DNA of 49,008 bases from an uncultured Myxococcales bacterium (lineage in GTDB: Bacteria > Myxococcota_A > Polyangia > Nannocystales > Nannocystaceae). How positions within the stretch are numbered: the first letter of the stretch is position 1; the number at the start of each line of letters is the position of its first letter. The stretch lies in assembly GCA_902826865.1 (NCBI GenBank), contig CADEGN010000016.1:1-49008 (forward strand). Reading direction: 5' to 3'. This document shows positions 17,672-44,821 of the stretch, in pieces. The translations under genes and the position numbers were made by a program. The notes beneath the pieces were generated by a model, which was given only the letters and a program-made list of their open reading frames with translations, ran no database searches and was not told where the DNA came from.

Positions 17672-20600
17672 TCAGGTCACCGTGACGCCGACCGCCCTGC
17701 GCGCGGTGAAGTAGTCCTCGCTGATGCTGTACAGAACCAGCTCTTTGATCTTGTCGCGCGGGCCCATCGTCGTGCCCAACGTCGAAGGCTCCTGCGAGAT
17801 CATCTGACCCGCGATCCGCAGATCGTGGCACAGCAGCAGCCCCACGCGGTAGGACGTGAGTTCGGCTGCTGCTGCCCACCGCTTCACATCCGTAGAGCCG
17901 CCAGCGTCGATGAACTTCTGCATCAGGCTACGCAGCTGATCGAGCGCGGCCGGCTGCATTCGACCCGTGATCTCGCGCGCGATGATATCGAGCGCAGCAA
18001 CGTTGTCGGTTTGCACCGGCATCCCAACCGCCCGCAAGCAAGCGAGGAACACCTGCTTGAGGTTCTGCGGCGAGCGCTCAAGCGCGACGTAGCAGTAGTG
18101 CGGTAAGTAGAGCTCCATCATGTAGCGGCCAAGCGCGAAGGCTAGGTGCGACTCGCTCTTTCCGCGAAGCAGATTCTGAAACACGACGAGCGATGGGTGC
18201 AGCGTCTCGTCGCGCTTCACATTCATGAGTGTAAGATCGCCCGGATCCGCCGGGCGTAGATACACGTCCGGCGTCGACACGTTGAGCACGTCCTTCACGT
18301 ACTTCGCCATCCGCGAGAACAAGGATGGATCGATCTGGATGTCGACGCGCTCATTGGCTCCAAGCGTCGACGGCAGCGGTTGTGCCCGCCAGGCAGCGAC
18401 CGCCGGCGCGATGAGCCCAAGGATTCCTGTGAGGTAGAGGTCCTGGTCCGGGTGAAATACGTGTTTGCGCAGCGTGTCCTCGCTGAGGCGCTGGCGCGCC
18501 ATCACGAAATCCCCACGCTTGTGTCGTTCCACGTAGTTTGCTTCGTCGTCAGTTGCCTTCTTGAGGAAGTTGAGCACCGACGCCACGCAGAAGGCCTTAT
18601 CTACCTCGCTCGCCGCGGTGTAGATCTGAAACAGCGCGTGGTAGCTCTCGTAGCGGAACGGCTCGTTGGCGATGAGGATCTGGTGCTCGCGGACGGCCGC
18701 ATCTACGTACTGCTTGGGATTGACCTCCATCAAGCGTTCGTACAGCTCGGCCATCTTCATGTGCCGGTCTACGTTGTCAGGGTCGAGCTTCGCCGCGACC
18801 TCGTACGCCGCGACCGCGGACTGGTAGTCCTGAAGACGGGTGCGATAGATCTCCGCCAAGTTGCTCCACAGCGTGACCTTGAGCTGCTCATTGCCGTCCT
18901 GCGGAAGGCGCTTGAGCATCTTTCGGTAGGCACGCTCCAGGGCCTTCCAGTCCTTGCTGCGCGTGAGCTGAGTATCGACCGCTTGGAACGCCTTCAGCAT
19001 CGACGGATCGTCGTCGAGCACCGTGTTGAAGCGCTCCACCGCCTCGTCGTTCATCCCCAGCTCGTCGCGTAGCAATACTGCTGCGGTGTAGTGGTACTTC
19101 GCCCGACGCGGGGGGTCTTTCTCGATCTCGACGATGCGATCGATGATCGAGATTGCATCGGTCCACCGCCTCGACGTCGTGTACAGCTCGAGCAGCGTGT
19201 GCAGCAGAGGGTAGTCGTCGGGTCGCAAATCGAGCGCCGCCGAGTACGCTGCCGCCGCCTTGTCCTTGTTGTTGAGCTTCGTCGCGCTGAGCTCGCCGAT
19301 ATCTTTCCACAACGCGAATTGGGCGTCGCCGTCGGGCGAGATGTCGATCAGCGCACGCTTGGCACTGATGACACCCTCCCAATCGGGGGTTGCTCCGCTG
19401 CTCTGCAAGGCAATGACTGCCGTAAGAGTCTCCTCGTGATGCGGGTCGACCTCAAGCGCCTTCTCGAAGTAGTTGAGGGCCTTGCGGGGTTCGTTCTGCC
19501 GATTCTTGATCGTGCCGAGCCGGTGATACACGCGCACCGTGTCCTCGCTGGACTGCGTGTCGCGATGCTGCACCAAGATCGTCTGGTAGAGCTTGAACGA
19601 GCGCTCCCAATCCTCGCGCTCGAACAACAGGTCGGCCATCCCCGTCAGGACGTCGTGGTTGGTCGAGTCGATGTCATAGGCGCGCTTGTACTGCTTCAGC
19701 GCCTTCTCTGCGTTACCAAGCGCCCGCGCTGTTTTCGCAGCGCGCAGGAACAGCTCTCGTTGCTGATCGTCGTCGAGCTCGAGCGAGTCGACCTTGCGCG
19801 TCAGCATGTCGTAGATGCCATCGCAGTAGGCGTAGTGCCCGCCTTCATAGTAGATGTCGGCTAGCACGCGACCGACCTTCACGTGCTCGGGGTCGTACGA
19901 CAGCGTCTTGCCAAAGAGCTCCACCGCCTTGTCGCGGTTGTCGAGCTCCTCGTAGTTGATAAAGGCCGCCTCGGCAGCCAAGTTGGTTCGCTCGAGGGCG
20001 TTGTGCGAGTGCTCCGAAGCTGTCTCGAGCACGCGCGACGCCTTGAGCCAGTCACCTCGCTGCTTGTAGATCTCGCCAAGCAGCACCAACGCACCGACGT
20101 GGCTGGGATCGATCTCGAGCGCCTGATTGAGGCGGTACTCAGCGTCCTCCGACGCGCCTAGCTTCTGGTGTTGGACCCGCGCGATCCGAGTAAGAAGCTC
20201 GGTGCGTTGTCCGGGATCGCGGGTAAGTTCCGCCAGCTGTCCCATCGTCTGGATGGCGTTCGGCCAGTCCTCGATCGCCTCTTGCAGGCGGCTCAGGGTG
20301 CTGGCGGCCTCGAAATTGTACGGATCTAGCTGGAGAATCTGGCCGTAGGTCTCGATGGCCCGGTCAACGTCTTCGACCTGCTTCTCATAGACTTCGCCCA
20401 TTGCGGTGAGCAGCGCGACCTTCATCGTCGGATCGTCGGTCGCATTCACATGTGAACGGTAGGTCTCGACCAGCTCCGTCCACTTCTCCATGCTCGCGTA
20501 CAGCTCTTCGAGCTGGCGATACGTGACATCGCGCGCTGGATCGAGCGAGATGACCTTCTCAAGGGTCTCGGCCGCCCGCTCGCGGTCGTTGGACATCGTC

Positions 20601-23600
20601 ACCAACGCGTGCGCCATTTTTTCGTAGATGACGATCTGATCTTCGACGTCGCCCGTCACGTCCAGTTGCGCCTCGAGCGTCTCGAGGTATTCAACTACGC
20701 GACCACCGTTGACGTACAGGCGCTCGAGGGATTGGAGCGCGTCGAGGTCGCCGGGATCTTCGGTTTGAATCGCCTTGTACGTCTCGATCGCGGCCGCGGC
20801 GTCGCCGAGGTTGACCTCGAGCACATAGCCGGCGTGCTTGCGCAGGCGCTGCCGGTCTTCGAGCTCTTCGCTCACCGCCGCGCGACGTTCGAGACACGCG
20901 ACCAGATCCTGCCAGTCGCCCCGTCCCTCGTGTAGACGGATCAGGGCATCGAGGGCCACGACGCTGTCGGTATCGACCTCGCGCACACGGCGGTACGACT
21001 CGATCGCGGCCCCAACGTCGCCACGCTTGGTTTCCTGGACCTCCGCCAACTCCAGCAACGTCGCCGACTGATCCGACGGTTCCTGCTCGAACGGAATAAT
21101 GCGCGCGAGGCTCTGGGCAAGCTCGTTCCAGTTCTCGGACCGACGATGAAAATTCGCCAGCTCGCGAAGCGCCGAGACGCTCTCTGGGTTGAGGGCGAGA
21201 GCCTTCTCCAGCGACTGAATCCCGTAGTCCGGTCGATTGAGGTGCTCGCCGTACCACCGACCGATCTTGACCCACAACTCGCAGCGCTCGTTGGGATCTT
21301 CGATTTGCTGGACGAGCCCGTTGTACTCGCTGAGCAGTTCGCTCCACTTGCCGGCCTGGGTGGCGATGCGCTCGAGCTCGCGCGCAGTGTAGTCGTTGGC
21401 GTAGTCGATGTTGAACGCGACCTGGAGGATAGCGAACGCATTGTCCGCATCGCCCATGTTCTCCTCGTAGACCTTGGCCGCCTGCTGCAGCGTCTCGACC
21501 TTGGTGACCTTGTCCTCGATCACATCGGCGCGCCCGATAAGCAACTCTGCGAGTGCGTCAAAGTCCCCGGTTTCGCGGTGAATATTCTCCAGCGCCTCGC
21601 TGGCGGCGAGGTGAGTGTTGTCGAGCTCGAGGATCTCCTGGTAGGCACCGGCGGCCTGATACTTGTCTTGGAGGCGCTCCTCCCAGATCGACGCGATCTG
21701 CATCAATACGTCGACCTTCCCCTCCTTGTCGCCGATGGCCTTGCTCTTGCGCTCGAGGGTCTCGATCGCCTCGCTCCACCGCCCCTGCTGCGTGTAGAGG
21801 TCCTCCAGCGCCTTGAGGGCTTCCATATCCGTCGGCGCCATCTCAAGGACCTGGTTCCAAGCGTCGATCGCCTGATCCGACGCCATGAGGTACTCGCCTT
21901 GAATCCGGCCAACCTTGGCGTAGAGCTCGCGCAGCTGATCCAAGCCAAGGGCGTCTGGACCCAACGAGATGAGACGCTGCAGGATGTCGATCAGCTCGAC
22001 CCACGCCTGGTTGCCCTCGTAGATCCGATGCAGCGCCTGTAGCGTGTCGATGTTGGCGTCGTCGAGATCGAGGGCGTTGAGCCAGGCCTCGAGCGCGTTG
22101 CGCTCGCGCCCAAGGTGCTCGCCATACACCCGACCAAGCGTCTGGTAGGCCTGGATCTTCGTGGGCGTGTCGTCGATCGCCAGCACCTGCCGCTCGAGCA
22201 CCTCGACCAGCTCATCCCAGCGACTGTTACGAGCGTGCAACGCCGCAAGCTCACCCAAGGCCAAGGGATCGTCGCCGCGCAGCTCGAGCACGCGATTCCA
22301 CAGGTCGATCGCTTGGTCCTCCTGCGCGAGCGCGTCCGACGAGAGTTTGGCCATGCGCTGATAGCAATCGGCCATGTCGTCGTCGGTGTTCGCCGTATCG
22401 GCCATTTTTTGGTAGACGTCGAACAGCTCTGCCCAGCGATACTGGGAGATGTAGAGGTACTCGAGTCGTTCGAGTGCCGCTTGATTGCGGGAGTCATGCC
22501 CAAGCGCGCGGTTGTAGGCCGCAATTGCCTGCTCGGGCTGAGCAAGCACGTTCTCGTAGACTCCCGCGAGTCGTGACTCGAGATCGACGAGCAGTTCCCC
22601 ATCCATCGTGCCTCGAATGCGCCGCTGGAGGATCTCAGCCAGTTCGTGGCCCATTCCCGCGCCGGTGTAGATGCGGTCGAGGGCACCGAGCGCCGCGGCG
22701 TCGTCTGGATCGATGTCGAGCACCATGCGATAGGCATCGATGGCCCGATCGGAGTCGGCGAGCTTCTCGTCGAGCACGCGTGCCGAGCGGGCGAGCACCG
22801 CCAGCCGCACCGCCGGCGACGGGTTCTCCTCCAAGATGGTCTGCCCCACATCTACGATGTGGCTCCACTCCTGGGTGATCTCGGCCAGGCGTTCCATCTC
22901 CTGGCAAACGTGCTCGTTGGTGGGATCGCCCAGATAGCCGCGAAGCCACCACAGATAGGCCTGGTCCGCGTCACCCAACCGATGTTCGCAAATCTCGGCA
23001 ACCTGCTGAATGATCTGCAGCTGCTCGGCCAAATCCGTGGTGTTGTTGATCTTCACCTCGCCGAGCTTGATTAGGGCGTCCCACCGCTCAGCCGAGTGGT
23101 AGATCGGCTCGAGGATTTCGGCGATCTCCGCCTGATGCACACCCGTCTGGAAGATCGCCTCAAGCGCTTCCAACGTGTCCGCATGTGCGGGATCGAGGTT
23201 GAGGATCTCGCGGTAAGCTGCGATCGCGCTCTCGGCATCGTCGAGGCTGTACTGGTAGATCTGGCCCATGCGGTAGTACAGGCCAATGACCTCATGCTCG
23301 TCACCGGTGATGCCGATCTGGCGCTGAAGGTTGGTGACCAATTCGCGCCAGCGTTGGAGACCGCTAAACAGCCGATCGAGCGCGTGGATCGCACTGACGT
23401 TTTCAGGATCGACCGCGAGGATCTCGAGGTGGCGTGAAATAGCACCGTCGAGGTTACCCAGCCGCTGCTCGTGCGTGCGTGCCAAACGAGTCAGGAGTTG
23501 GACCTTGACCAGCGGATCGCTCGTCTTACCCGACTGGTCCGCCAAGAGGGCGGAATAGCGCTCCCAGTCGCCCGTGACCTCGGCCAGGCGTTCGAGCTGG

Positions 23601-26600
23601 CCGATGGTGAGTTCCGACTGCGGGTCGATGGCAAGGGCACGGGCATAGGCGTCGAAGGCCCGGTCGAACTCGCTCAGCTGACGCTCGAGGATCGCAGCGA
23701 GCCCGTGAAGACGATCGATCCGCGCCACCGGATCCTCCGTGTGGCGAATCATCACCTCGATAACGTCGACCAAGCGCTCCGGATCGCCGCTCTGCTCATA
23801 GAGCGGCGCGAGCACCTGCGCCGCCAACATCGGCTCGTTGTCGCCGTGAACGATTCGGTCGAGCGCGTCGATCGTCGGTTTGTGCTCCGGATCGTGATTG
23901 AGCACCTCGCGGTAGGACTCGACCGCCCTCACCATGTCCCCGAGCTGCGCCTCCCAGAGGCCGCCGATGCGATAGCGATAGGCGGTCTGCTCTTCGGGCA
24001 CATCGGCGGCGTCGACTGCACGCTCGAGAATCTGAAGCTGGTCGAGCCAACGGGCAGCCGTGCCGTAGAGGCGATCCAACGCGGCGATCGCTTGGGAGTC
24101 GCTCGGGTCGATGTCGAGAACCGCCTGATAGGTGTCGATGGCGCGCGCCGTATCGGCGAGCTCGCGGTCGTAGACCTGGCCGAGCACATAGAGCGCCTGG
24201 CGACGATCGTCGGGATCCGTGGCGAGCTCCGACTGACGCTGGTAGACGTCCTTGAGCTGTTCCCAGCGCTCGAGCTGTATGAACAGCTTCACGAGGGCGT
24301 CAAGCGCCGTCCGATCGCTGTCGTCGATGGACAACACCTGCTGGTAAAGCTTGATCGCGCCCTCGGAGTCCTCCATCACGCTTTCGCGGACGTTGGCTGC
24401 GTAGAGCAACAGCTTCTTCTGGTCGTCGGGGACCTCGATCATGTCCGCTTTGCGGACCACAGCGTCCACCAAAGCGCCGTAGTTCTCGGTGCGCTCATGA
24501 ACGGAGATCAACGCGTCGACGGCGGTGAAATTCGCGGGATCAACACCGAGGATCTTCCCGTACGTGGCTGCCGCCTTGGCGGCATCGTCGATCGCGCTCT
24601 CATAGAACTGCGCCACCTTGCCCAGCAGTGCGATTCGCAGTTCGTCATCAACCACGTCGTCGACGACGCTCTCATAGAGCGTCACCAGGGCGCCGTATGA
24701 GCCCAGCTGGCGCGCGAGTCCCTCAAGCTTGTCTTGCGTGTCGGCATTGGCCGGATCGTCGCGGAGTGCCCGCCCATAGGCATCGAAGGCCCGCTCGGGC
24801 TCTTCGCCGCCGATCTCGTGGAGCTCGCCGATCCTGTGGAGTAGCCGGATCTTCTCGCTCGGCTCGAGCGAGTGCTTGACCATGATCTCGTAGGTCGCGA
24901 TCAGGCTCTTCCAATCGTTGCTTTGGCGGTAGACAGACTCGAGGATGCGCGCGACAGCCATCTGGTGCTGCTCATCGCCGAGTAGACCTTCAAGGGCCTC
25001 GAGAGCCGACTCGTTTTGCGGCTCGAGCTCGAGCACGATTGCGTAGGTCTCGATGGCCAGGGCAGTCTGGCCGAGCTGGCGCAGGCGAAGGGCGCCGAGG
25101 CGGAGATTGAGCTCAACTTGCTGGCCAAGATCGCCGACAAGCGCGAGCTGCCGGGCCAGGTTCTCCGCCAGTTCTGGCCACTTTTGCCGCGACTGATACA
25201 AACGATCGAGCGCCGAAATCGCCCGCAGGTTGACGTCGTCGTCGGCGAGAATGTCGGTATACGTCAGGATTGCATCGTCGGCTCGGCCGAGCATGTCCTC
25301 CTGGAGGGACGCGATCTTGAATCGCAGTGACTCGCGCGCGCGCGGGTCGTTCTCGAGGTCGACCTTGCGGCGGTAGACGTCAAGGAGCGCCCCCCAGTTC
25401 TGGTCACGGGTGTAGAGCGCGTCGAGTGCGTCGAGCGCCGAGGCATCCTCGGGATCGATATCGGTCGCCCGTTGATAGCAAACGATGGCCTTCGCCGGCT
25501 CACCTAGCTGGCCGTCATAGAGCTCGGCAAGCCGCGTCAACAACGAGCGCATCTTGCCACTCGGGAGATCCTTAGCGACCGCCTCTTCGTAGAGCGCGGC
25601 CACGTCTTCCCAGCGATTTTCGATCGTCGCCAGCGTCTCAAGCTCGTTCTGAGCCGAGTCGCTGAGCGGGTCCTCGGTGAATGCGCGGCCAAACACGGAG
25701 AACGCGGCACTTGCGTCGCCGACGCGCTGCGCGGTGATGTGTCCTATGCGAAGAAGCAGCTCCACCCGCTGCGAGCTGGTTTCGGAGGCAGCTGCTTGGA
25801 TCTCGAGGCAGCGCACCACCTGCGGCCACTCCTCCGCGCTCTCGTAGACCGGGAGGAGCAGCCCCGCGACCTCAACCTGGTGTTTCGGGTCGTCGAGCCA
25901 GCCTTCGAGTCGTTCGCGCGCTCCGTCGTGCAGCGGATCGAGCGTGAGCACCTCTTGGTAGAATCGAATGGCCGCCGAGGGATTGCCGAGCTTGTCGTGC
26001 TGCAGCATCCCCGAGCGTTGAAGCAGCTCGCAACGCCCGTCGATGTCGTCGTCGGGTCTGGCGGCGAGCTCGCGCGCAAGGATGTCAGCCAGCTCGGGCC
26101 AACGGCCGAGCGACAAGAAGATGCGATCGAGTGCCGCTAGGACGGTTGGATCTTCGACGCCCGAGGCCAGCACTGCCTGATACGCCGCGATCGCCTCGTC
26201 GTGGTGACCAAGCTGTTCTTGAATGCTCCCCATGCGGGTTTGAGTCGCCCGCCGGTCGTCGTCGTTCGCCGCGAGCGACAGCTTCGTGCGCAAGACGTTG
26301 AGCAAGTCCTCCTCGCGGCCGAGCGCGAGGAACAGCCGCTCGAGTGACTCGAGCGCGGTGGGCTGCTCGGGTTCGATCTCGAGGATCGCCTGATTGATCT
26401 TCAGTGCCGCGTCGAGGTCGACGAGCTTGCTCTCCTGAATCCCGGCGAGCTCCAGCCGGAGCGGTAGGCTGTCGCTGCTGGAACCGAACTTGGAGATGGC
26501 GCTCTCGAGTGAATCGGCCAACAACCCCCAACCGCTCGTGCTCGCGGCTAGGCGGTTGAGGTGCGAACGAACGTCGGACCCTGTGTAGTCTTCATCGAAG

Positions 26601-29600
26601 GCCTTGCGGTAGTACCCAAACGCCGAGGTTGGGTCGATCAGCACCCGCTCCGCCAAATCGGCAAGGCGCCGCAGAAGCCGCTGGCGGTCCGCCGGGTCCT
26701 CGGCGTGGTCGAGTTTGATTCTCAGCGGAACTGAGATGTTGCGCTCATCGTCCGCCTCCTCGTAGAGCTCGATCAGCTTCTCCGCAACCACGAGGTTACG
26801 CGGATCGTCGGTGAGTGCCTTCTCCAGCGAGCGCATTGCTCGGTCGGGCTTCGCGAGCTTGTCGCGGTACAGATCGGCGATCTTGAGAAGGAGCGCGATC
26901 TTCGACGCACCCGTCGCACCCTCGGACTCGCGCTCGAGCACGCGAACGAACTCGCCCCACTTGTCCTGCCGAGCGTAGAACTGCTCGAGGGCATCCATGT
27001 TGCCCTCTTGCAAGTACAACTTCTTGAGTGCGTCCTGCGCTCGGCGATTCTCGGGGTCGATCTCGTAGAGTTTCTCCCAGGTGCGGATCGCCGCCGGGCT
27101 GTCGTTGAGCTTGTCGCCGTAGAGCAAGCCGAGCTTGACCAGGAAGTTCCCGAGCGCAGCTTGGTCGGTCGTCGCGGCGCACAGCTTCTCGAGCGTGTCG
27201 GCTAGCTCTGGCCAGGCCTTCTCGCGCTCCTGAAGCTGCTCGAGGTTTTGCAGCGCCTCAACGTTCCCCGGATCGAGCTCGAGCAGCTGCGTCCACAACT
27301 CGATCGACAGCGATGGCTTCTTGATCTTCTGGCCCGCGGTGCGGGCAATCTCGAGGAGCTGAGCCTTGCGCTCGGTGGGGTCAGCGATGAGTCCCAGCTC
27401 CTTCTGCTGAACCGCGATCATCCGTTCCCAATCGCGGCGCCGGCCGTAGAGATCCTTGAGCTTGGCGATCGCCGTGGGCTCCATCGGATCAACCTCAAGC
27501 ACCGCCTCGTAGCTCTTGATCGCCTCTGCCTGGTTGTTGAACTTGTCGAGGAACAGGTTGCCAGCCTGCAGATGGAGCGACTTCTGCTCGTCGGAGTTCG
27601 GGGAGAGCTCCGCGCGACGGCGGATCCGACCGATAAGGTCGGGCCAGCGCTTCATCTGCTCGAACTGGTTTTGCTGCGCTTCGATTACGCGAAGCAGCTC
27701 GGTTGTCTGGCCCGCGTCCTCGAGCAGCTTCTCGAGCGCGGCTAGGGTGGTGACCACGAGGCCGGGCTGACGCAACTGATCGCGGTAGACCTCGACGAGC
27801 TCCCAGTTGACCTGCTCGCGACCCGCAATATCCGTGTCGGGTAGGTGCTTGAGCTGCTCCTTGAGCAGATCGGCAACGTTGCTCCACTTGTTCTGCTCGG
27901 CGTAGAGCGCCTTCAACCTGCTGCGTGGGTAGGTCTTGTCGGGCGCCGCGGTGATCGCCTCGCGCCAAAGATCGATCTGGCGCTTGCTGCCCTTCTCGGC
28001 CGCCTCGGCCTTGCGAATGACGGTGAGCTGCGCGGCGGTGAACGACTCGCCGTCGATCTCACCGGGCTCTCCCGCTGGCTCCGGCTCGGACACGGGTTGC
28101 GGGCGTGCGGCTGTACGCGCTTGCTCAGTTGGGGCAGGGCGCACCGGTTCGGGTTTGGGCTCGGGCCGGGCGACGACCGGCTCAGGGTCCGGCTCAGGGT
28201 CCGGTTCCACCACGTCCGGCTCGTCGACCGCAAGCGGTTCGGCGACCGGCTCGGCGACGGCAACCGATTCGGGCTCGGGCGCAGCGTCGAGACTCTCCTC
28301 GGCTTCGACGGCAGCGAGCTTTGCGGTCGTTCGCTCATAGGCGGCTGGCGAGGACGTCGCCGGCTGCGCTGCGGACCCATCGCCGTCGCTCGCATCGACG
28401 GGCGCCGCGGGCGGCGGCTCGACATCCTCGAATCCACCTTCAGCCTTGCGGAACGCGACGATCGACGGGTGGCTGTCCGCAAACTTGGCTGCGCGCGCGA
28501 AGAACCGCCGTGCGGTCTCAACGTCCTTGAACTTCCGCCAGGCCAGCTCACCCGCCGACAACGCCATGATGGCAGCGTCGTGCTCGTCGAAGACCCCGAC
28601 CGCTCGCTCGGCGAGTGGGATCAGCGAATCGGCGTTGCCAAGCTCGTCGGCGGCTTGCAACAACCGACGATAGGCCGCCAGATGCCAGTCGCGCCCGAAG
28701 CCAACATCGAACAACCTGTGCTCGAGCGCCAGATCGAGGGCCTGATGGTGGAAGTACGCCGCCATCTCCGGCTTGTTGAGCCGGACTTGCCACACCCGGG
28801 CAGCATGCAGCATGAGACGCAAGCGGGCCGTCGGATCGTCGGTGTGCGCGACACGGCGATCTTGCAGCTTCTGAACGTGCTGGAGATGGCCGGTCGCGGC
28901 GAGCAACGTCTCGGCGATGAACCCGGCTTCGTTGTTGCTCGGATCGGCGTCGAGCGCCTTGAATGCGCACGGCAACAGGCGCGGATCATCGGGTGATTCT
29001 TGCTGGAGAATCCGCGCAGCTCGCAGGTAGAGCGCGCTGATCGCATGTCCACGCTTAACCACGTCCGCGCCGAGTGGGTCGTCGCTTCCGGTGAGGGCGC
29101 GCAACTGCGCCATCACGTTGTCGAGGCCCAGCTGCCAGTTCTTGCGGTCGTAGATGACCTCTTGGAACCGATCCGAATACATCGTTTCGTTCGGAGCCAA
29201 CGCTTGCGCTGCTTCGAGGTACGAACGTGCTTCGTCGATCTTGCGCTGATTGAGCTGCGCCGTGCCAAACGCGTAGTTGAGCTCCGCCGCAAGCGCCTCG
29301 TCCTTGTTGCGTTGCAACTCGAGACCCATCAGGCGCGTTACCATCTCGAGGTGCGCCATCTCCTGGTAGATCGACCGCGCGTGACGGAGCGCTGCGAGGT
29401 TGGTTTGATCGGCCTTGAACGCCTGCTGGTAGCAGGTCATCGCGCGCGCTTGATCGAGGAAGACGTCCTCACACGCGCGACCGAGGTCGAAGAGCGCACG
29501 TGACTGCGCGAGCTTGTCGGCCACCGCGTTGGCCTCGGCCTCGAGCTCGTCGAGCACGACGTTCCAGTCTTCGACCTCTCGAAGGCGCTGTTTGATCCGC

Positions 29601-29922: not shown

Positions 29923-30870
29923 TCAGATGACGTCTTGCATGCGCGCAATCGTGTTCTGCGCGGCCTGCTTGATATCTTCCGGGGTGTCATTGCCGGCCTT
30001 CTGCATGAAGGCCTGCAAGTTCTCCACGGCTTCTTTGCGGTTGCGCAGCTCGGCGTACGCCATGCCGAGGCCGAACAGCACGTCGACCATCTCGGGATCG
30101 AGCGCCTTCGCCTTCTTGAACGACTCAACCGCTTCTGTCGGCTTGTTGAGCGACAGCTGGGCCCGGCCGAGGCCGTTCCACATGCCGCCGTCCTTGTCGT
30201 TCACCTTCGTACCCGTCTCGAGCACCAAGTGGCCGACGTTGGCAAAGCCGTAGTCGATGTACATGTTGCCGAGTGAGACAAAGGCGAGGCTATAGGTGGG
30301 ACGCAGCTCGATGGACTTGCGGAAGGCTTGATCAGCCTTTTGGGGCTGGTCGAGCTTCTCGAACAGCGCACCCATCCGGTAGTTGGCCTTGTAGTGGCTG
30401 GGATCGAGCGTGATCGCCTGTTGGAATTGGGCGATCGCGTCCTGGTACTTCTTGTCACGATCGACCTGGCTGACGCCCGGGGCGTCGCCCTGGGACGCAA
30501 GGACCGCCCCGAGCTGGTACGGGTAGTCCGCCTGCGGGTTCTGCTTCATGTTGTCGATCGCGCTGCGGAACATCTTCTCGGCGTCGACCAGCTTGCCCTG
30601 CTTGCGGTACATCTGGCCGAGCGTCCAATACGGCTCGGGGAAGGACGGATCGATTTCGATCGCCTCGCGTAACGCCTTTTCCGCGCCGGAGCTGTTGTTG
30701 CGCTTGTCGAGGGAGATGCCTTCGTTGAGCCGGCTGATCGCCTGCACCCTCTGCCGACTCGCGAGTTCGCACCCGGGTTGGGTTGTGAAGAGGGGGGCGA
30801 GCAGGACGAGGAGCGTGGCAAATCGGCGCATGATCTCTCGGTCGCGTCGCAGGGCGCGAATCCGCGGCAT
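29923..30870 (-). CDS. TPR lipoprotein, second AglT/GltE-like component
   Basis: A TPR protein of about 315 residues. ATG 30870 has a good ribosome-binding site (GGTGGAG, 5-nt spacing); ATG 30831 (302 residues) gives a tighter signal peptide and is a real alternative. The leader RRFATLLVLLAPLF ends in TTQPGC, a weak lipobox, so it is probably an outer-membrane-directed lipoprotein. Six or so TPRs follow (for example AEKALREAIEIDPSFPEPYW, AIAQFQQAITLDPSHYKANY). In Myxococcus GltE/AglT is a TPR outer-membrane lipoprotein. This gene is a shorter relative placed between the GltG-like and GltI-like genes, and may serve as an alternative GltE, since the main copy is interrupted. Confidence 0.8.
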   Translation of the reverse strand: MPRIRALRRDREIMRRFATLLVLLAPLFTTQPGCELASRQRVQAISRLNEGISLDKRNNSSGAEKALREAIEIDPSFPEPYWTLGQMYRKQGKLVDAEKMFRSAIDNMKQNPQADYPYQLGAVLASQGDAPGVSQVDRDKKYQDAIAQFQQAITLDPSHYKANYRMGALFEKLDQPQKADQAFRKSIELRPTYSLAFVSLGNMYIDYGFANVGHLVLETGTKVNDKDGGMWNGLGRAQLSLNKPTEAVESFKKAKALDPEMVDVLFGLGMAYAELRNRKEAVENLQAFMQKAGNDTPEDIKQAAQNTIARMQDVI

Positions 30871-35720: not shown

Positions 35721-35993
35721 TCAGACGTCGCGAGCCATGTTGATGAGCTCGCGCAGGAAGTGCGGGCGGATCGTGATGAGGCTCGCGTGCTTCACGCGTC
35801 CGCGCGAGGAAAGATTCGCGCCCTCGGGCCGGAGGACCTCGCCGTCCACGTTGTCGTCATCGAAATCGTACACGGTGACCCCGCCCTTCTCGCCCTTGCG
35901 CGCGGCATCGTCCGCGTCGGTGTCGCTCGGTGCGGCCGAGGCGGTGGTGGTCCACAGAGCGGCGGCGATGAACGCAAACATGGTGGCTCGCAT
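35721..35993 (-). CDS. cglF: Small secreted protein, CglF/GltF-like
   Basis: The 90-residue product starts at ATG 35993 with Shine-Dalgarno GGAGAG 7 nt upstream; in-frame ATGs at 36008 and 36032 lack one. Signal peptide MRATMFAFIAAALWTTTASAA, then an acidic stretch and a mature domain of pattern YDFDDDNVDGEVLRPEG ... SLITIRPHFLRELINMARDV. This resembles GltF/CglF of Myxococcus, whose C-terminus has the form DFxDVxxxGELxKPEG followed by LIxxRxxF; that pattern is recalled, not searched. GltF is a small periplasmic/envelope member of the gliding complex, and its gene lies between gltE and gltG there, exactly as here. It is driven by its own promoter at 36036-36064. Confidence 0.68.
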   Translation of the reverse strand: MRATMFAFIAAALWTTTASAAPSDTDADDAARKGEKGGVTVYDFDDDNVDGEVLRPEGANLSSRGRVKHASLITIRPHFLRELINMARDV

Positions 35994-36035
35994 GGCGACT
36001 CTCTCCATCGGGGGGCACACCCGAATCAGCATCGA

Positions 36036-36201: not shown

Positions 36202-36606
36202 TCACTTGGGCTTGTCGGCGGGCTTGGCCCCGTCGGCGGGCTTGGCCGCGTCGGCCGGTTTTGCGGGCGCAGCCGGAGGTGCGGCCGCGGGCGCAGCACC
36301 GCCGCCGCCGCTCTGCTGCTTGCGCAGGTCTTCCTCAAGCTTGCGCAGCCTCGCCTTCTCCTCTTCTTCGGCCTTCTTTGCGGCCGCCTCGATCTTCTTG
36401 GCTTCAGCCTCGAGCCGCTTCATCTCTTCGATGTTCTTGAACAGCTCGTTGATGTTGTTGACCCGGCTCTTCGCGTCCTCCGAGAACTTCTGCAGGTCCT
36501 TCTTGCCGGAGGCCTGGGAGACGAACTTGTTGAAGTAGTCCTGGGCCGTGACGAATGGCTTCTTGTTGAAGGTGTCGCGCTCGTAGGCTGGACCGGTGTG
36601 ACCGGG
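36202..36606 (-). pseudogene. Distal part of gltE beyond an in-frame amber codon
   Basis: The frame of the upstream TPR lipoprotein continues without change for 134 codons after TAG at 36609-36607. It encodes an AYERDTFNKKPF segment, a helical region (YFNKFVSQASGKKD ... RVNNINELFKNIEEMKRLE), a charged Glu/Lys coiled coil and a Lys/Pro/Ala-rich tail ending in ADKPK. No ATG, GTG or TTG occurs before the ATG at 36423, so the segment would be translated only by read-through or if the stop is an assembly error. Together with the proximal part it gives 498 residues, close to the roughly 500-residue AglT/GltE. Confidence 0.7.
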
Positions 36607-37698
36607 CTACTGGACGCCGAGGTTGCAGCGAGCTCGCGGGGCAGCTCCCCTGACGTCGAGGGCCTTTTTGAAGGCCTTCTCTGCGTCGCCGTACTTCCGC
36701 TGACCGCGAAGCGAGACACCCAAACCGAGGTAGGCCTCGACGTTCCTCTTCTGGCGCCTGTCCTTGATCGCGATGTTGATCGATTCTTCCGCCGTTTTGT
36801 AGTCGCGGAACCAAATCGCGATCATGGCGATGTTCATGTTCGCATCCGCGTGGTTCTTGTCGACTTCGACGGCCTTCTTGAAGGCCTTCAGCGCGTCGAC
36901 CATGTTCGGCGGCGTGGCCTGCATCAGAAGCAGGCCCTTGATGTTGTAGATGTCCGCGCTCTGCCGCTTCTCGGCTTCGAGCACACGGCGGGCCTGGGTA
37001 ACGACCAAGTCCGCGAGCAAAAGGTAGGACTTATCCTTGAGCCGACCGCGGTCGTAATAAAGGCGCGCGAGGTTTTCGTAGGCCACCGGGTTGTCGGAGT
37101 CGACCGCGAGGACGCGCTGGATCTCGTTCTCGGCGGCCTCGAAGTCGGACTGCTGCGGGTTGTCGGCGTACTTGTCGCGCAGGGCCGCGGCGAGGTTGTT
37201 GCGCGGAGCCTTGGTGGCCGGGTTCGCGGCCACGGCTTTCTTGAAGTAGTCGAGCGCCTTGCCCTCTTGCTTGCGATTCCAATAGATGACGCCGAGGTTG
37301 TTGTACGAAAGGTCGTACTTGGGCACCTCGCGGGTGAGCTGCTCGTAGATATCCTCGGCCTTCTCGATGTCGCCGCACTCCTCCCAAACGGCGCCGGCGT
37401 TGAACTTCGCCACCGCGATCTGGGCGCCGTGGTCCTTGTAGACCCGCTCGAACGCCTTCGACAGCTCGTCGCACATCCCCTTGGCCAGGGGCCCGCGGGC
37501 CTTGGCGGAGGCATAGCGCTGGGCGACGTCGGCGAACGAGGACTTGGCCGCAGCGGTCGCAGCCTCGGGATCGCTCGGGTTGGCCTGCACACCGCCCGGG
37601 GCGTTGCCCTCGCCGTCTTTCCCCTTCTTCTTGCAGGCAACCGCCGACAAGGAGAGACCGAGCGCGAGCACAGTGATGATTTGCTTGGTGATACGCAT
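36607..37698 (-). CDS. gltE: GltE (AglT)-like TPR lipoprotein, truncated by TAG
   Basis: The 363-residue product starts at ATG 37698, with AGGAG 8 nt upstream. The signal peptide ends at lipobox SAVAC (Cys22), so it is an outer-membrane lipoprotein. Several TPRs follow, for example AEDIYEQLTREVPKYDLSYN, ALDYFKKAVAANPATKAPRN, ALKAFKKAVEVDKNHADANM and AEKAFKKALDVRG. Translation stops at TAG (36609-36607) right after CNLGVQ, in the middle of a TPR, while the same frame goes on for 134 codons. GltE/AglT is an outer-membrane TPR lipoprotein required for gliding in Myxococcus; it interacts with GltD and GltG-type partners. It lies 23 nt downstream of gltD, so the two are cotranscribed. Confidence 0.84.
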   Translation of the reverse strand: MRITKQIITVLALGLSLSAVACKKKGKDGEGNAPGGVQANPSDPEAATAAAKSSFADVAQRYASAKARGPLAKGMCDELSKAFERVYKDHGAQIAVAKFNAGAVWEECGDIEKAEDIYEQLTREVPKYDLSYNNLGVIYWNRKQEGKALDYFKKAVAANPATKAPRNNLAAALRDKYADNPQQSDFEAAENEIQRVLAVDSDNPVAYENLARLYYDRGRLKDKSYLLLADLVVTQARRVLEAEKRQSADIYNIKGLLLMQATPPNMVDALKAFKKAVEVDKNHADANMNIAMIAIWFRDYKTAEESINIAIKDRRQKRNVEAYLGLGVSLRGQRKYGDAEKAFKKALDVRGAAPRARCNLGVQ

Positions 37699-37721
37699 GG
37701 TGTTGCTCCTGCTCGGCGGGC

Positions 37722-40700
37722 TCAGTTCGCAGACGCGCCTTCGCTGTCGTCGTCACCCTCGTCGTCGCCCTTGTCGTCTTTTTTGCCGTCGCCGTCGTCG
37801 GCACCAGGCTTGGCGCCGGGCTTGGCGGCGCTCTTCTTGGCACCGCCATCGATATCAACCTGCACGCCGACCACGTCGAGGTGGCTATCGGTGTAGATCG
37901 ACGTCCCGAACAACTCGTTGGTGGCCGGGTACTTGTCGGCGTCGCTCTGCTGCAGCTCTTCTTCGCACATGCGCGAGAACGAGTTGAAGAACTGGAACTC
38001 CGTCGATCGAGCCAAACAGTACTCCAGCGCTTCTTTGGCGGTGGCCGTCAGCGGATCTCCGTAGCGGATCGCGAGCTCGTCGCAGTACGCGTCCTTCTGA
38101 TCCTCGTTCTTGAGGTTCTCCGGTACCGGCGCTCGGTAGAGCTGGTCGGCGAAGTTGCGGTTGACCAGGGCCGTACGAGCCGCGGCCGCCAGCGTCCAGT
38201 ACGGGCTGCCCGAGGCCTTGACCTTGGCGTAACCCTCGATCAGCTCGCCGCCGAGCTTCTTCTTGCGGTCGAACCAGTCGCCGAACCGCTTCTTGGAGTC
38301 GGTCTCTTTGGCCAGAGCGTCCTTGTATTCCTTTTCGTACTTGCCCCCGAGCTCCTTCTTCCACTCTTCGGCAGACGCGCCGAAAAACAGGTTGCCGGGG
38401 ATCTCGAGCGCCAGATACTCCTCGTACTTCTTGTCCGCGGTGTAGACCAGCGCCATGCCGACGGCGTTCTTGTAGTCGTCGACGCGGGCGAGGTCATCGG
38501 CCGGGATGTTGGGCTTCTTGCTCGACGCGCGCAGCACGGCGTCGAAATGCGACATCGCCTCGGCCGCCTTCTTGCCGTCGCGCTTGTGGACGGTGATGAG
38601 GGCCTGCGTGGCGGTGCCACAGTACTTCGGCAGGGCGTCCTTCTTCTTCTTGGCCCTCGTGCGCAGCTTCTCAGCTTTCTTGCGCGCGTCTTCGCCGGCG
38701 CTGGCCTTCTTGCGCTGGATGGTGATGCAGCTGTCGTAGAGCAGCTCCTTGTCGCACGACTGCCGCCAGAGGATCTGCCCGATCGACGCCTCTGCAACCG
38801 CCTGGCGGTCTGCGCCGCCCTTGCCACCGTAGGTGGACAGATAGGCCTTGGCGTGGGCGAGCTTCGACGCGTCGTCGGTGAGCAGCGAGTGCTTCGACCA
38901 GTAGATCTTCGCTGCGGTGGTTACATCCTTCTTCTTGTAGAAGTCCTCGTACTTGGCGAGATCGGCGGCCGCCTTCTCCTGCTGGCCTAGGCCGAGCCGG
39001 AACAGGTACGCATTGTTGAGCGCCTCGGACGAGAAATTGTCCTTGGGGTTTTGGGTGGCGTACTCCTCAAACCGCGTCGCTGCGTCCTCGTAGTAGGCGA
39101 TGGCCTGGTAGTTCTGGCCGAGCTCGCGCAGCGTTTGCTTGGCGTGCTCGCTCTTCGGATAGCGCGACAGCAGCTCCTTGCGCATGTTGATCGCGTTGCC
39201 AACCAGATACCCGGCCTCGAAGCAACGCGCCGCATTGAACAGCAGGGTGGCCGCGCGGGGGTGCTTCTCGAAGTCGTTCCAGATCTGGACGAACTCGTTG
39301 CCGCACTTCTTATAACCCTGCGGATCCCCCTGCTGTCCCTGTGTCTGGTAGGCCATGGCCCGCTTCCAACCGATGCCCGCCAGCAACTCCGGCACGGTTT
39401 CGCGCACGCGATCGGCTTCTTCGTGCTTCCAGACCTTGGCCTTTTGCAGCTTCTTCGCCCACTCCTCGAGCTCATTGCTGGCCTTGATGTCGTCCTCGGG
39501 TGAGTTGCCCTGGTTTGTCCAGGCGATGGTCAGGATGTCGACGAGCATCTCTGCAGCCCAGGCGGCGTAGACCGAACCATCGAACTTGCTGATCAAGTCG
39601 ATGGCGAGCGGCTTCGCCTCCTTGAACTTGTTGTGCATCATCATCAACTTGACGCGGTGATACACAATCTTCGGTAGCTCGGGGTCCTTCGGGTTCTTCA
39701 CGTACTTCTGGTACGTGTCGTACGCCGTGATCATCTCAGACTCTTCGGACGTGTACTCAGACTCCGGGTACTCCCGGTTGACGTCGGTCTTGGAGTCCGT
39801 CGACGTGCCGACCTTCTTCTCCTTCTTCTTTTCCTTGTAGACGCAGACGCCCTCGGTGTTCACCTTGCAGGCTTTGCCCTGCGCGCCCGTCTCGTCGTAT
39901 TCGAGCGCGTTCTTCATCGCCAGCATCTGGGCGTAGGCGGCATCCTTGGTGTACTTGCCGTCGGGCTTGCGCTTGAGGACGTTGAGGAACTCCTCATGCG
40001 CCTCGCGGAACTTCTTGAGACCCCCGGCCCTGACCGACTTGTCTTTGCTGTTGTAGGCGTGGTCGGCCTGGGCCCATAGCAAGTCGGCGTAGTAGTAGTT
40101 GAGCTCGTACGCGTCCTTGTCCTGGGGGAAGTACTGCATGAAGGCGCGGTACGCCTTCTCGGACAAGTCGTATGTATCCTGCCGACGCGTTTTCTCAGCC
40201 TCGTCGTGCCATACCGTGGCCATCTGCTTCACGGTGTCACGGGCGCCGTCGCGGCACGCCTTCTTGACCGGCTCCTTGAACTGGCTGCTCTTGTACTTCT
40301 CCCAGTATGCAGCGAGCTTGTCGGTCTCGATCCACTGGATCTGCTTGTCGTCCGTCGCTAGGGCGTTGACGACGACGCGGTACTGCCAGTCGCACGCGTC
40401 GGGATCGGTCTCGAACAAGTCCTGAAGCTTCTTGTAGACCGAGCTCGACTCGACATACATACCTTCGCCGAAGTAGGCGGCGGCGAGCAGCTCCATCATC
40501 TTCTTCGACATGTCCTCGTCCTTCTTCGGACCAGAACCGACTGTCGTGAAGAAGTCCCACGCCTTGGACGGCTTGCCGGAGTGGACGTAGGCCTTGACGA
40601 GGTCGCGGCGCGCGTCCCGGCGGAGCTGCTTGGCGTTCGCTTCTGAGCCGGCGCGCCCGTCGATCGTCGCCTTCACGGTCTCGACGAACTTGTTGAGGCT

Positions 40701-41609
40701 CTTGGTGTACTCGGGCTCGGCGGTACCGATCGGGTTGAGGTAACACCACGCCATCTTGTAGAGGGCGTAGGCGTAGACCGGGCTGTCTTTGTAGCCGTCG
40801 ACGATCTTCTGGTAGAGCGTGAGCGCATCCGCGATCTGGTTGTTGCCGTAGTAGTAGTCGGCGAAGCTCAGATACGCGTTGGGGATGTACTTGCTGGTGG
40901 GGTACTCGCGGATGAGCCGCAAATACGCGTCCTTCATCTCGCTCTCGCGGTTGAGCTGGCCGAGCTCAAACGCGTAGAAGTAGATCGCCTCATCGAGGCG
41001 TTTGTACTTCGCGAACGCCGAATCGGTGACGAGCAGCTTGTAGACCTTCGCCGCATCGCCGCTCGACACCTTCGCCTGGGCCTCGAAGCGCTTCTGCTTC
41101 TCCTTGAACTGGTTGGCCTCGGCTTTCTTGCCTGCCTCTTGCGCGGCATAGATCTTGTCGTAGAGCGATCCTGCCTGGCGCTCGAAGTAGGCCTTCTTCT
41201 CGAGGTGGTGGTCGGAGAGCCGGAACAGGAGATCGGGCATCTCCGGGTCGGTCTTTTCAGTGCTCTCGATGAGGCGTTTGAGCACCCCGATCTGCTTGTC
41301 GGCGTACTCCTGCGTGACGGCCTCGCGCTGGCGCGCGAAGTCCTCCGCATCCATCATCTGGACTTCCTTCTTCTTGTCGGCCTCGGCCTTTTTCTGCGCG
41401 TCCTTGAACTTGGTGTCGAGCGTGCTCTTGGTCGATATCTTCCCGGACTTGCGCTCGTAGCGGACCGCATTCCCGTCGCCACCCGCCGGTTCCTCGGCCC
41501 CCGCCGGCGACGCGGCGAGCAGCGACGACGCGAGCACTCCGCTCAGGATGCCGAGGCTTCCAGCTCGGCGCAGATGCAGGGGGCGTTGTTGGAGTCGGTT
41601 CGTGGACAT
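37722..41609 (-). CDS. gltD: GltD (AgmU)-like large periplasmic TPR protein
   Basis: The 1295-residue product is close to the roughly 1200 residues of AgmU/GltD. ATG 41609 has AAGG-type ribosome-binding sequence; GTG 41618 has none at proper spacing. The signal peptide ends LLAASPAGA near residue 39, so the protein is periplasmic. It is dense with TPR/Sel1-like helical repeats (YLRLIREYPTSKYIPNAYLSFADYYYG, ALTLYQKIVDGYKD, AATLLFNAARCFEAG). A Lys/Glu-rich segment lies in the middle and a Lys- and Asp-rich low-complexity tail at the end. AgmU decorates the gliding helix/focal complexes in Myxococcus and bridges inner- and outer-membrane parts. The order gltC-gltD-gltE on one strand supports a single operon from the promoter at 43645-43674. 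Confidence 0.85.
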   Translation of the reverse strand: MSTNRLQQRPLHLRRAGSLGILSGVLASSLLAASPAGAEEPAGGDGNAVRYERKSGKISTKSTLDTKFKDAQKKAEADKKKEVQMMDAEDFARQREAVTQEYADKQIGVLKRLIESTEKTDPEMPDLLFRLSDHHLEKKAYFERQAGSLYDKIYAAQEAGKKAEANQFKEKQKRFEAQAKVSSGDAAKVYKLLVTDSAFAKYKRLDEAIYFYAFELGQLNRESEMKDAYLRLIREYPTSKYIPNAYLSFADYYYGNNQIADALTLYQKIVDGYKDSPVYAYALYKMAWCYLNPIGTAEPEYTKSLNKFVETVKATIDGRAGSEANAKQLRRDARRDLVKAYVHSGKPSKAWDFFTTVGSGPKKDEDMSKKMMELLAAAYFGEGMYVESSSVYKKLQDLFETDPDACDWQYRVVVNALATDDKQIQWIETDKLAAYWEKYKSSQFKEPVKKACRDGARDTVKQMATVWHDEAEKTRRQDTYDLSEKAYRAFMQYFPQDKDAYELNYYYADLLWAQADHAYNSKDKSVRAGGLKKFREAHEEFLNVLKRKPDGKYTKDAAYAQMLAMKNALEYDETGAQGKACKVNTEGVCVYKEKKKEKKVGTSTDSKTDVNREYPESEYTSEESEMITAYDTYQKYVKNPKDPELPKIVYHRVKLMMMHNKFKEAKPLAIDLISKFDGSVYAAWAAEMLVDILTIAWTNQGNSPEDDIKASNELEEWAKKLQKAKVWKHEEADRVRETVPELLAGIGWKRAMAYQTQGQQGDPQGYKKCGNEFVQIWNDFEKHPRAATLLFNAARCFEAGYLVGNAINMRKELLSRYPKSEHAKQTLRELGQNYQAIAYYEDAATRFEEYATQNPKDNFSSEALNNAYLFRLGLGQQEKAAADLAKYEDFYKKKDVTTAAKIYWSKHSLLTDDASKLAHAKAYLSTYGGKGGADRQAVAEASIGQILWRQSCDKELLYDSCITIQRKKASAGEDARKKAEKLRTRAKKKKDALPKYCGTATQALITVHKRDGKKAAEAMSHFDAVLRASSKKPNIPADDLARVDDYKNAVGMALVYTADKKYEEYLALEIPGNLFFGASAEEWKKELGGKYEKEYKDALAKETDSKKRFGDWFDRKKKLGGELIEGYAKVKASGSPYWTLAAAARTALVNRNFADQLYRAPVPENLKNEDQKDAYCDELAIRYGDPLTATAKEALEYCLARSTEFQFFNSFSRMCEEELQQSDADKYPATNELFGTSIYTDSHLDVVGVQVDIDGGAKKSAAKPGAKPGADDGDGKKDDKGDDEGDDDSEGASAN

Positions 41610-41724
41610 GACCTTCACCTTCCGGATGCGCCACGGCAGCCGGGAGGCTGCCTGCGCTGTTTGACCCGCGTGCGGGGCCGAGAATGCGTCGTAGTCGTCG
41701 AGGTAGCGCGCCTGCTTTCGACGA

Positions 41725-43497
41725 TTACTCCTTGCAGAGGCTCGTGACCTTGTAGCGGTAATAGCGCAGTTCGTCCTGCCAGTACTCGCCGTTGTAGTTG
41801 TAGATCTCGTGCTCGGAGTCGACCGGGGGCCGCTGCGCCTTCGGGGGTTCGGCTTCGAGTGCCCCCTGCTGCTTGCGCTTCTCGAGAATCTCGTACTCGA
41901 CCTTGATCATCTCTTTGTTGAGCTCTTTGATCTCTTTGATCTGACCGGTGATGCGCTCGCGCGCCTCTTGTCCGGTTGCCTCGCGGGCGGCTGACAGCGC
42001 GAGATCGAGATCCTCGGTGATTCGTTCACCGACGCCAGCGGCCTTGAACTCCGAGCTCATGTCGTCGAGCTGCTGCTGCTCGCGCTCGAGCTCGTCGACA
42101 TAGGCGAAGTACTTGGACAGCTGCTTATCTTGTAGGGCCTTCTGCGCGACGCGCTCCACGAACGGGTCAAGGCCCGAGTCCTCGTCGATGATCTTGCGGG
42201 CCATCTCGTAGAGTTTGAAGTCCTCGGGTGCCTGGTCGAGAATGCCCTGGAGCTTCTGCATCGTGCCCGGGTAGCGGCGCTTGAACTCGTCCACCGTGCG
42301 ACGCGCAGAGTCGAAGCGGCAGTTGAAGTAGTACGTCACCGCCTTGAGCTTGAGCGCGTCCGGGTAGAGGTAGTCCTCGAAGAACGGCGCATTGAGCGTG
42401 TGCACGTAGCCGAGCGTGCGCTGATAGTGGAGATTGGCGTCCTTGTCGTCGACCTCGACCTTGCGGAACTCGGCCCACGCGGCCCAGTGCACCGCGTCGA
42501 GGAAGAACGGCGACTCCAGGGGAATCGCGTCCAGGTACTTAATGGCCGTGTCGAACTTACCGACCATGTAGAAGATGTTCGCCAGACCGAGCCGGGCAAG
42601 GTGGTCGTATTGGAGCATCTCTGCCTGGAAATCGAGCTCGGTGGAGGTGCGCGTGCGCCGGCCCCGTTTGCCGCGCCGCTTCTGCTTGCCGCGATCCTTC
42701 TTGCGCTCCTTGGCGGCCGCTTTGCGGGCGGCCTTCTTGTTCTTCTTGCGGTTGGCTTCGTCGGCCAAGCGGAGCGTCGTTGCCTTGCGCAGAACGTTCT
42801 TGAAGGCGTCGACCGCCGGCTCGCCCGCGAAGTTGCGCGTGTGCGCGACGCCGAGGAAAAACTGCGCAGGGATGTAGTAGTCGCTCGACTCTGGGACCTG
42901 GTCGAGCAGAGCGATGCCCTGGGGTAGATCGCCCTTCTCGTAATAGAAGCGACCGAGCAGGTAGTAGAGCTCGTCGCGCACGTCGTCGAACGCCTCATCC
43001 TCGAGGTCGGTCGGCTTGTAGCGGCCGATCTTCTGCAACACCTCGGCGCCCTCGGGCAGCTCGCGCGACAGCGAGGCGAGCCACGGTAGCGTGAGCTTGT
43101 GGAACGGATGGGTTGGACCGGCCTGGACGATTTCGTCGAAGATCGAAAGCGACGCGGAGTAGAACTTCAGCTTGTAGAGCGTCTTGCCCAGCCAGAACTG
43201 CGCGCGCGGCTGATCGCCAGGGACCTCCTTGGCCACCACCTTGTAGAACTGAATCGCAGCGGCCTCGTAGTCGCCAGCCTTGTACTGCGCCTCGCCTTGA
43301 GCGTTGGCGCCCATGGCCCCCACGGGCGGCGGCGGTGCAGTCGGCGGCGTCTTGGGGACAGGGCCGGCCGGCGCCGCGCCAGCAGCATCCGGCGCCGGCG
43401 GCGGACCGGCGAGGGCGAGCGGCGCTGCGAACAGCAACATCCCCATTACAGAGCTGGGTAGACAGAACTTGAACGTGCGCCGGCGCGGGTTGGTCAT
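41725..43497 (-). CDS. gltC: GltC-like periplasmic TPR protein
   Basis: The 590-residue product starts at ATG 43497 (AGGA 8 nt upstream). The signal peptide ends APLALAG near residue 31 and is followed by a Pro/Ala-rich stretch. TPR-like helical pairs fill residues about 65-240 and 290-420. Between them, about 242-282, is a block of some 40 residues that is almost half Lys/Arg. A coiled-coil region (about 455-540) precedes a conserved-looking ending, YNYNGEYWQDELRYYRYKVTSLC, typical of GltC-type proteins, which end in a GEYWxDELxYYR motif (recalled). In Myxococcus GltC is a periplasmic part of the gliding complex. Here it is directly upstream of gltD, whereas in Myxococcus the two lie in separate clusters. 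Confidence 0.78.
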   Translation of the reverse strand: MTNPRRRTFKFCLPSSVMGMLLFAAPLALAGPPPAPDAAGAAPAGPVPKTPPTAPPPPVGAMGANAQGEAQYKAGDYEAAAIQFYKVVAKEVPGDQPRAQFWLGKTLYKLKFYSASLSIFDEIVQAGPTHPFHKLTLPWLASLSRELPEGAEVLQKIGRYKPTDLEDEAFDDVRDELYYLLGRFYYEKGDLPQGIALLDQVPESSDYYIPAQFFLGVAHTRNFAGEPAVDAFKNVLRKATTLRLADEANRKKNKKAARKAAAKERKKDRGKQKRRGKRGRRTRTSTELDFQAEMLQYDHLARLGLANIFYMVGKFDTAIKYLDAIPLESPFFLDAVHWAAWAEFRKVEVDDKDANLHYQRTLGYVHTLNAPFFEDYLYPDALKLKAVTYYFNCRFDSARRTVDEFKRRYPGTMQKLQGILDQAPEDFKLYEMARKIIDEDSGLDPFVERVAQKALQDKQLSKYFAYVDELEREQQQLDDMSSEFKAAGVGERITEDLDLALSAAREATGQEARERITGQIKEIKELNKEMIKVEYEILEKRKQQGALEAEPPKAQRPPVDSEHEIYNYNGEYWQDELRYYRYKVTSLCKE

Positions 43498-43644
43498 CGG
43501 AGTTGTCCTGGGATCGCGATCGATCGCGGGCTCGCGGGTCGCGTGTCGACAACAGCGACGACACGCGTGGCGGATCGCCCACCGCGATGTCGACAGACCG
43601 TCGAAGACACGCTCGGGTCGGATGTCGCCATTCGAAGGCCTAGG

Positions 43645-43674
43645 ACATTACCAGCGGCCCGCAACGGCCCGCAA
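43645..43674 (-). promoter_or_regulatory. Candidate promoter of the gltC-gltD-gltE operon
   Basis: Minus strand: TTGCGG (43674-43669), 18 nt, TAATGT (43650-43645), with TGG just before the -10 (extended -10). The -35 overlaps a tandem GGCCCGCAA-type direct repeat that could bind a regulator. The leader would be about 140 nt. Confidence 0.4.
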
Positions 43675-43805
43675 GGGCGGCGATCGGCGGAGATCGGTGC
43701 GGCAGGCGAGTCGGGACTCGCAATCGGCCGCGCATGCCGTAGGCGGTGATCGCCACGCCATGCACACGACACGGACGTCTTTGGGCGAGCCACGCATTGG
43801 TTTCG

Positions 43806-44194: not shown

Positions 44195-44821
44195 TCAACC
44201 GACGCCGCACGCTTCGGGTCGCTGCAGCGGGTCGTCCACGTCGCAGCAGCCCTCCTGCGTGCCTTGCGAGCACTTCCGATCGAGATCCTCGTCGACCGCC
44301 AGGTCGTCACTGCAGACGCAGAGCTTGGCGCAGCAGAACTCGCCGAGGCTCTGGATTCGCGCGCACTTGAAACCCTGGTTGCAGTTGGTGTTCTCGACCA
44401 CGACCTTCTTCGTGGGGCCACCATCCTTACAGTCAGAGTCGCTGCTGCACCTCTTCGAGCACATCGACCGCTCGAGCACGTACTTGTTGGCGAGGCGACA
44501 GGTTCCGTTGGAGTCGTTCGGGTCGGCCTTCACGCACTCGAACTTCGACTGCTCGGGGCTGTTTTGGTTGCAGAACGCCGAGTCCGGGCAGGGGTCTCGC
44601 ACCGCCTCGGCGGTGTCCGCGTAGACGCACAGAAGCTCGTTGCATGTGAGAGCGGGGAACGTGACGAGCTTCGACTCGGGAGGCTCGATCTTGCCGTGGT
44701 TGCACGGTGCGCCCACATCGCCCTTGGCACACGAAACGCCGACCAACAGCAGGAACGCGGCGCCCATGGTCCGGGTCATCGTCATCGCGCGCATCGCTCG
44801 TCCAGTTCGCATCGTGTTCAT
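44195..44821 (-). CDS. Cys-rich lipoprotein, CglC/GltK-like candidate
   Basis: About 208 residues from ATG 44821; ATG 44794 is an equally possible start. The leader AAFLLLVGVSC gives lipid attachment at the Cys. The mature part has about 18 Cys in patterns such as ALTCNELLCVY, DPCPDSAFC, NGTCRLA, MCSKRCSSDSDC and FCCAKLCVC, so it is heavily disulfide-bonded and extracytoplasmic. In Myxococcus the outer-membrane gliding lipoprotein CglC/GltK is small and Cys-rich, and its gene neighbours gltC; the same neighbourhood here supports that guess. No domain beyond the Cys pattern is recognised, so it could also be an unrelated myxobacterial surface lipoprotein. A strong promoter lies 85 nt upstream. 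Confidence 0.62.
   Translation of the reverse strand: MNTMRTGRAMRAMTMTRTMGAAFLLLVGVSCAKGDVGAPCNHGKIEPPESKLVTFPALTCNELLCVYADTAEAVRDPCPDSAFCNQNSPEQSKFECVKADPNDSNGTCRLANKYVLERSMCSKRCSSDSDCKDGGPTKKVVVENTNCNQGFKCARIQSLGEFCCAKLCVCSDDLAVDEDLDRKCSQGTQEGCCDVDDPLQRPEACGVG

Follow-up and report, generated by a model that had tools for sequence, protein, structure and literature searches.

The M. xanthus Glt transducer is encoded by two gene clusters, G1 (gltD-J) and G2 (gltK-B-A-C). AglR binds GltG (PMC3169522), and one AglRQS motor drives both Glt during gliding and Nfs during assembly of the spore coat (PMC3858216). Core complexes encoded by a single cluster have already been published from outside the Myxococcales (Luciano et al. 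2011, PMC3169522). The same paper describes a Group B core complex with gltC, gltD, gltE and gltG plus aglRQS in one cluster, and a statement there on Anaeromyxobacter has the homologues of G1 and G2 grouped.

The window analysed here, a stretch of 49,008 nucleotides, is the entire contig C16 of an 8.5-Mb genome assembled in 628 contigs and 91% complete. From 17672 to 43497 its minus strand encodes GltC, GltD, GltE, CglF/GltF, two copies of GltG, a TPR lipoprotein and a GltI-like protein, and the gene of a Cys-rich lipoprotein adjoins this series. All nine genes lie where an earlier, sequence-only reading of this DNA had placed them. From high to low coordinates the features are:

44195..44821, minus strand: Cys-rich lipoprotein with a predicted lipobox, LVGVSC; start inferred
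43628..43682, minus strand: conserved non-coding stretch 5' of GltC, 76-84% identical in DNA among relatives
41725..43497, minus strand: GltC, exported TPR protein (NF033756, E=1.1e-62), adjoining GltD in relatives
37722..41618, minus strand: GltD, large exported TPR protein of 1298 aa with orthologues in same-family genomes
36202..37698, minus strand: GltE, TPR lipoprotein, broken by a TAG at 36607-36609 beyond which the reading frame stays open
35721..36032, minus strand: CglF/GltF, small exported protein (NF033764, E=2.9e-15)
33342..35480, minus strand: GltG, with an FHA domain and a TonB-like C-terminal tail (NF033760, E=4.7e-112; NF033768; PF00498)
31008..~32996, minus strand: second GltG, a tandem paralogue with FHA domain and tail retained (NF033760, E=4.3e-83); start inferred
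29923..30831, minus strand: TPR lipoprotein; most relatives have it in the same slot, flanked by GltG and GltI; start inferred
17672..29614, minus strand: GltI-like giant TPR protein of 3980 aa, by TPR content and position; signal peptide not apparent

The conserved stretch at 43628-43682 is possibly the promoter or leader of the Glt cluster; the fold of the region upstream of GltC showed nothing unusual (z = -1.66). At the other end, an FHA-GAF-adenylate/guanylate cyclase gene (15080-16705) faces GltI, as it does in several same-family genomes. The ORF at 16702-17664 matches only the C-terminal half of Hydantoinase_B and may be a truncated gene.

Profile searches support the link to Glt families that the sequence-only reading had proposed, at scores that all fall below the equivalog cut-offs. 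In the NCBIfam searches GltC scored 212.7 bits (cut-off 450), CglF/GltF 56 bits (cut-off 90), and the first and second GltG 376 and 280 bits (cut-off 650 for both). The GltE segment 36607-37698 matched NF033758 with E=2.3e-17 and 63 bits (cut-off 225), a score that generic TPR models reach alike. None of these five proteins reached its equivalog score; the FHA (PF00498) and NF033768 tail domains of the GltG pair did exceed their cut-offs in Pfam and NCBIfam. GltD and GltI matched no Glt model among the Pfam and NCBIfam profiles; their identification draws on position, size, TPR content and synteny with orthologues in relatives. The Cys-rich lipoprotein had no match in either collection, and PDB searches with GltG and GltC returned only FHA and generic TPR structures. 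Orthology to the M. xanthus genes is based on the NCBIfam models and on published descriptions. As judged from these matches, the occurrence of several distinct Glt families on one strand and in order is well past chance.

Within this genome, the window also holds the best match to the GltC model (212.7 bits, compared with 80 on contig C73 and 57 on contig C129), the GltG model (376 bits against 148 on C73) and the CglF model (56 bits against none on C73 and 16 on C129). These ranks place the window set nearest to the GltC, GltG and CglF models of gliding, GltE being uninformative. In one relative (G158), the GltC model gives 414 for the window-type locus and 174 for a VWA/barrel-linked one.

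The sequence-only reading had recognised gltE. The gene is indeed present and does not simply end at 36607: its frame stays open beyond the in-frame TAG at 36607-36609 as far as 36202, and this further part can be aligned to the C-terminal end of the intact GltE of relatives. The TAG occupies the site of a Tyr codon (TAC or TAT) in the aligned gltE genes. In a block of 16 codons around it, nine amino-acid changes are found only in the window at positions where two congeners agree, whereas other GltE blocks contain 0-5 such changes, typically two. Given this cluster of substitutions at the stop, the alignable open frame beyond it and an assembly in 628 contigs, the TAG is probably a local sequence error; we consider this the most likely origin and do not favour a recent nonsense change. 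Recoding or readthrough of the TAG is disfavoured by the Tyr codon found at this site in relatives. If the stop were a genuine nonsense mutation, GltE would be truncated and the cluster might be non-functional in this organism, but the features that make the stop look like a sequence error, together with the intact state of the remaining genes of the cluster, make such a loss of function very unlikely.

GltD found matches in 58 of 59 genomes searched. Among the 28 same-family relatives, 26 gave a strong match (56-78% identity), all but G001 and G019. We read the DNA surrounding the locus in 28 genomes, 15 from the same family, nine others from the class and four from elsewhere in the phylum, with family and genus labels that we inferred. 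GltC lies immediately before GltD, followed by GltE, in every one of the 28, including the four outside the class. GltF, GltG, the TPR lipoprotein and GltI come next in most of the loci with long enough contigs. The gene rplS is found at the same place upstream in each of the 14 same-family loci with contigs long enough to include it and in several other families, and the locus of relatives often lies downstream of rimM-rplS. In G012 (L017, 15374-18048) and G020 (L102, 5126-7556), GltE and GltF are separated by an inserted hydrolase-like gene and a second GltE.

Because GltC and GltD adjoin in 28/28 genomes and single-cluster forms have been in print since 2011, their joining appears to be a common arrangement and no rarity. 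The sequence-only reading had taken the locus to be unusually condensed, the joined genes reflecting either an ancestral or a rearranged state. A comparison of synteny of the kind it had proposed shows the same order, GltC-GltD-GltE, to be the rule among the relatives examined, which leaves an ancestral state plausible and speaks against a special condensation or rearrangement. The division of the M. xanthus genes between G1 and G2 might suggest that a rearrangement peculiar to the host lineage had brought the two together, but the adjacency seen in all 28 relatives, four of them from outside the class, contradicts this explanation, to which we give almost no credence. The gltC/gltD split of M. 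xanthus would instead be the derived state; none of the sampled genomes has a split cluster.

Wherever the Cys-rich lipoprotein gene was found in relatives, it lies on the strand opposite GltC, and in the window it shares the strand of GltC; the gene is therefore locally inverted here. No inverted repeats of at least 14 bases flank it. Tandem GltG pairs also occur in G002 and G007, and the other family members whose DNA we followed across this region carry a single copy. The second copies of the window and of G002 group together in the GltG tree (support 100/100) and that of G007 forms a long branch that the tree does not place; the pairs may go back to one duplication or to several.

The window encodes no AglRQS, GltJ or GltK and none of the outer-membrane barrels GltA, GltB and GltH. 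The absence of the motor, GltJ and the barrels agrees with what had been noted from the sequence alone, and the accompanying suggestion that the machine might be completed elsewhere is possible, since other contigs encode MglA and MglB, a Glt-type motor triad, a GltJ-like protein and outer-membrane barrels. An MglA on contig C116 aligns with M. xanthus MglA in the PDB over all 195 residues (E=2.6e-107) and has an MglB gene directly upstream; contig C50 carries a second MglA copy. No protein of the genome exceeded the cut-off of the GltJ model. A protein on contig C45 with a zinc ribbon, a GYF domain, a transmembrane segment and a tail scored 94 against a cut-off of 450, and its best PDB matches are domains of AgmX (GltJ), with E=2.6e-8 and 6.7e-7.

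In whole-genome searches, all MotA/ExbB and ExbD matches fell on contigs other than that of the window. The cluster on C129 (L212, 1-12327) consists, in order, of an Obg-type GTPase gene, genes for proteins resembling GltC, GltD, GltE and, weakly, CglF, and genes for MotA and two ExbD proteins, the second of which runs off the contig. G012 and G027 have the whole motor part, with a gene for a TonB-like-tailed protein after it, and in G012 the motor operon lies beside rplU, rpmA and obgE. The C129 MotA is 94-96% identical within the genus and at least 78% identical in 25/28 same-family relatives. According to an alignment with TolR made by eye, the first ExbD has Asn where the proton-carrying Asp usually stands, and the second ExbD has Asp there. 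We consider this MotA-ExbD-ExbD triad the most likely candidate for an AglRQS-type stator of the window scaffold.

Two other MotA-ExbD-ExbD triads were set aside. The one on contig C37 is followed by a TonB-dependent receptor, making a role in nutrient uptake more likely, and the one on contig C93 is followed by a protein matching MtsC. The C93 MotA has no clear phylum-wide orthologue, and it matched genomes without GltC about as well as genomes with GltC.

The genome has two further Glt-like clusters, on C73 and C129, which together with that of the window make at least three sets. The C73 set (L060, 1250-12090) encodes two OMP_myx_plus barrels that exceed the cut-off along with GltC-, GltD-, GltE- and GltG-like proteins; it lies beside an FHA-sigma54 activator. 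Among relatives, a single cluster of G060 (L159, 5118-20000, and L214) combines a VWA-like lipoprotein, an outer-membrane barrel, GltC-D-E-F-G, a TPR lipoprotein and GltI-like and GltJ-like pieces, and its GltC is the sole one above the equivalog cut-off among 142 genomes. A cluster of G158 (L156, 3363-14686) combines a VWA protein, an outer-membrane barrel, GltC/D/E/F and a GltJ-like protein.

The window might instead encode a Glt-family surface transporter of envelope or spore-coat polymer, similar to Nfs, and any gliding would then depend on another set. The wide occurrence and fixed position of the locus in relatives, the lack of any adhesin or barrel in the window, the presence of two barrels in the C73 cluster and the published role of Nfs in spore coat assembly (PMC3858216) are all consistent with such a transporter. 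Nevertheless, it is the window set that is closest in the genome to the gliding GltC, GltG and CglF models, and we regard a polymer transporter as the less likely reading, though as the main rival and clearly more probable than a cluster disabled at GltE.

We favour the interpretation, with a probability of roughly 0.6, that the window carries the host lineage's orthologue of the Glt trans-envelope scaffold, a single vertically inherited locus powered in trans for directed transport of surface cargo, most likely in gliding. It is supported by the profile matches and their rank as best in the genome, the conservation of GltD, the gene order, MglA and MglB, the C129 triad and the GltJ-like protein on C45. 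What the sequences show are the genes of the cluster, their homology and conservation, and the partner genes elsewhere in the genome; from these we infer where the proteins would reside and how the partners would couple to the scaffold. The two GltG copies would be in the inner membrane, with FHA in the cytoplasm and the TonB-like tail in the periplasm, and are presumed to be the transducers that couple to the motor. GltG would take proton-motive work from an AglRQS-type stator, most likely the C129 MotA-ExbD-ExbD, by analogy with the published AglR-GltG interaction and motor sharing. GltC, GltD, GltE, CglF and the TPR lipoprotein might then pass the motion on across the periplasm to the outer membrane, with GltI serving as a TPR platform in the cytoplasm and with polarity set by MglA and MglB, encoded on another contig. 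Such a machine would carry surface-attached cargo in a directed manner, most likely producing gliding.

Several observations weaken this interpretation. All profile scores are under the equivalog cut-offs, GltH, GltK, GltA and GltB are missing from the window, and assembled GltE contains a stop codon. The cluster is widespread in lineages that are not known to us as gliders. The genome has other MotA-ExbD-ExbD triads (C37 and C93), and the C129 motor, lying inside its own Glt-like operon, may serve that operon alone. More tentatively, the rplS-linked GltC-D-E-F-G-TPR-I locus might be the phylum's ancestral Glt scaffold, kept in place and powered in trans by the highly conserved AglRQS-type motor operon that adjoins obgE. 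The gltC/gltD split of M. xanthus would then be derived and the ancestral job would be surface transport other than gliding. We find this possible, with odds short of even.

The Glt-family scaffold cluster itself is real and well conserved. It shows that the scaffold behind myxobacterial gliding has stayed together as one block even in distant relatives, and a single genome combines at least three Glt-like sets with a very conserved motor. A cultured relative such as Nannocystis thus offers a way to ask which of the sets drives cell movement and what cargo the rest carry, a question that the 2011 and 2013 papers left open (PMC3169522, PMC3858216).

Compared with the M. xanthus Glt system, the window has homologues of GltC, GltD, GltE, GltF, GltG and the giant TPR protein GltI (3980 aa in the window, 4132 aa in M. 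xanthus), in the shared order D-E-F-G-...-I. It differs in that gltC is joined to gltD, in lacking gltH, gltJ, gltA, gltB and gltK, in having an extra GltG and an added TPR lipoprotein, and in scores below the equivalog cut-offs. The Nfs sporulation complex of M. xanthus, likened here by its published description, is a paralogous Glt-like transducer that uses the AglRQS motor. The window resembles the Group B core complex in the clustering of GltC, GltD, GltE and GltG, but it lacks the motor genes and includes CglF, the TPR lipoprotein and GltI. Of the two clusters, that on C129, with its motor genes, is the nearer to Group B. As in the window, genes of the G1 and G2 types are grouped on the chromosome of Anaeromyxobacter, according to the published statement on that genus.
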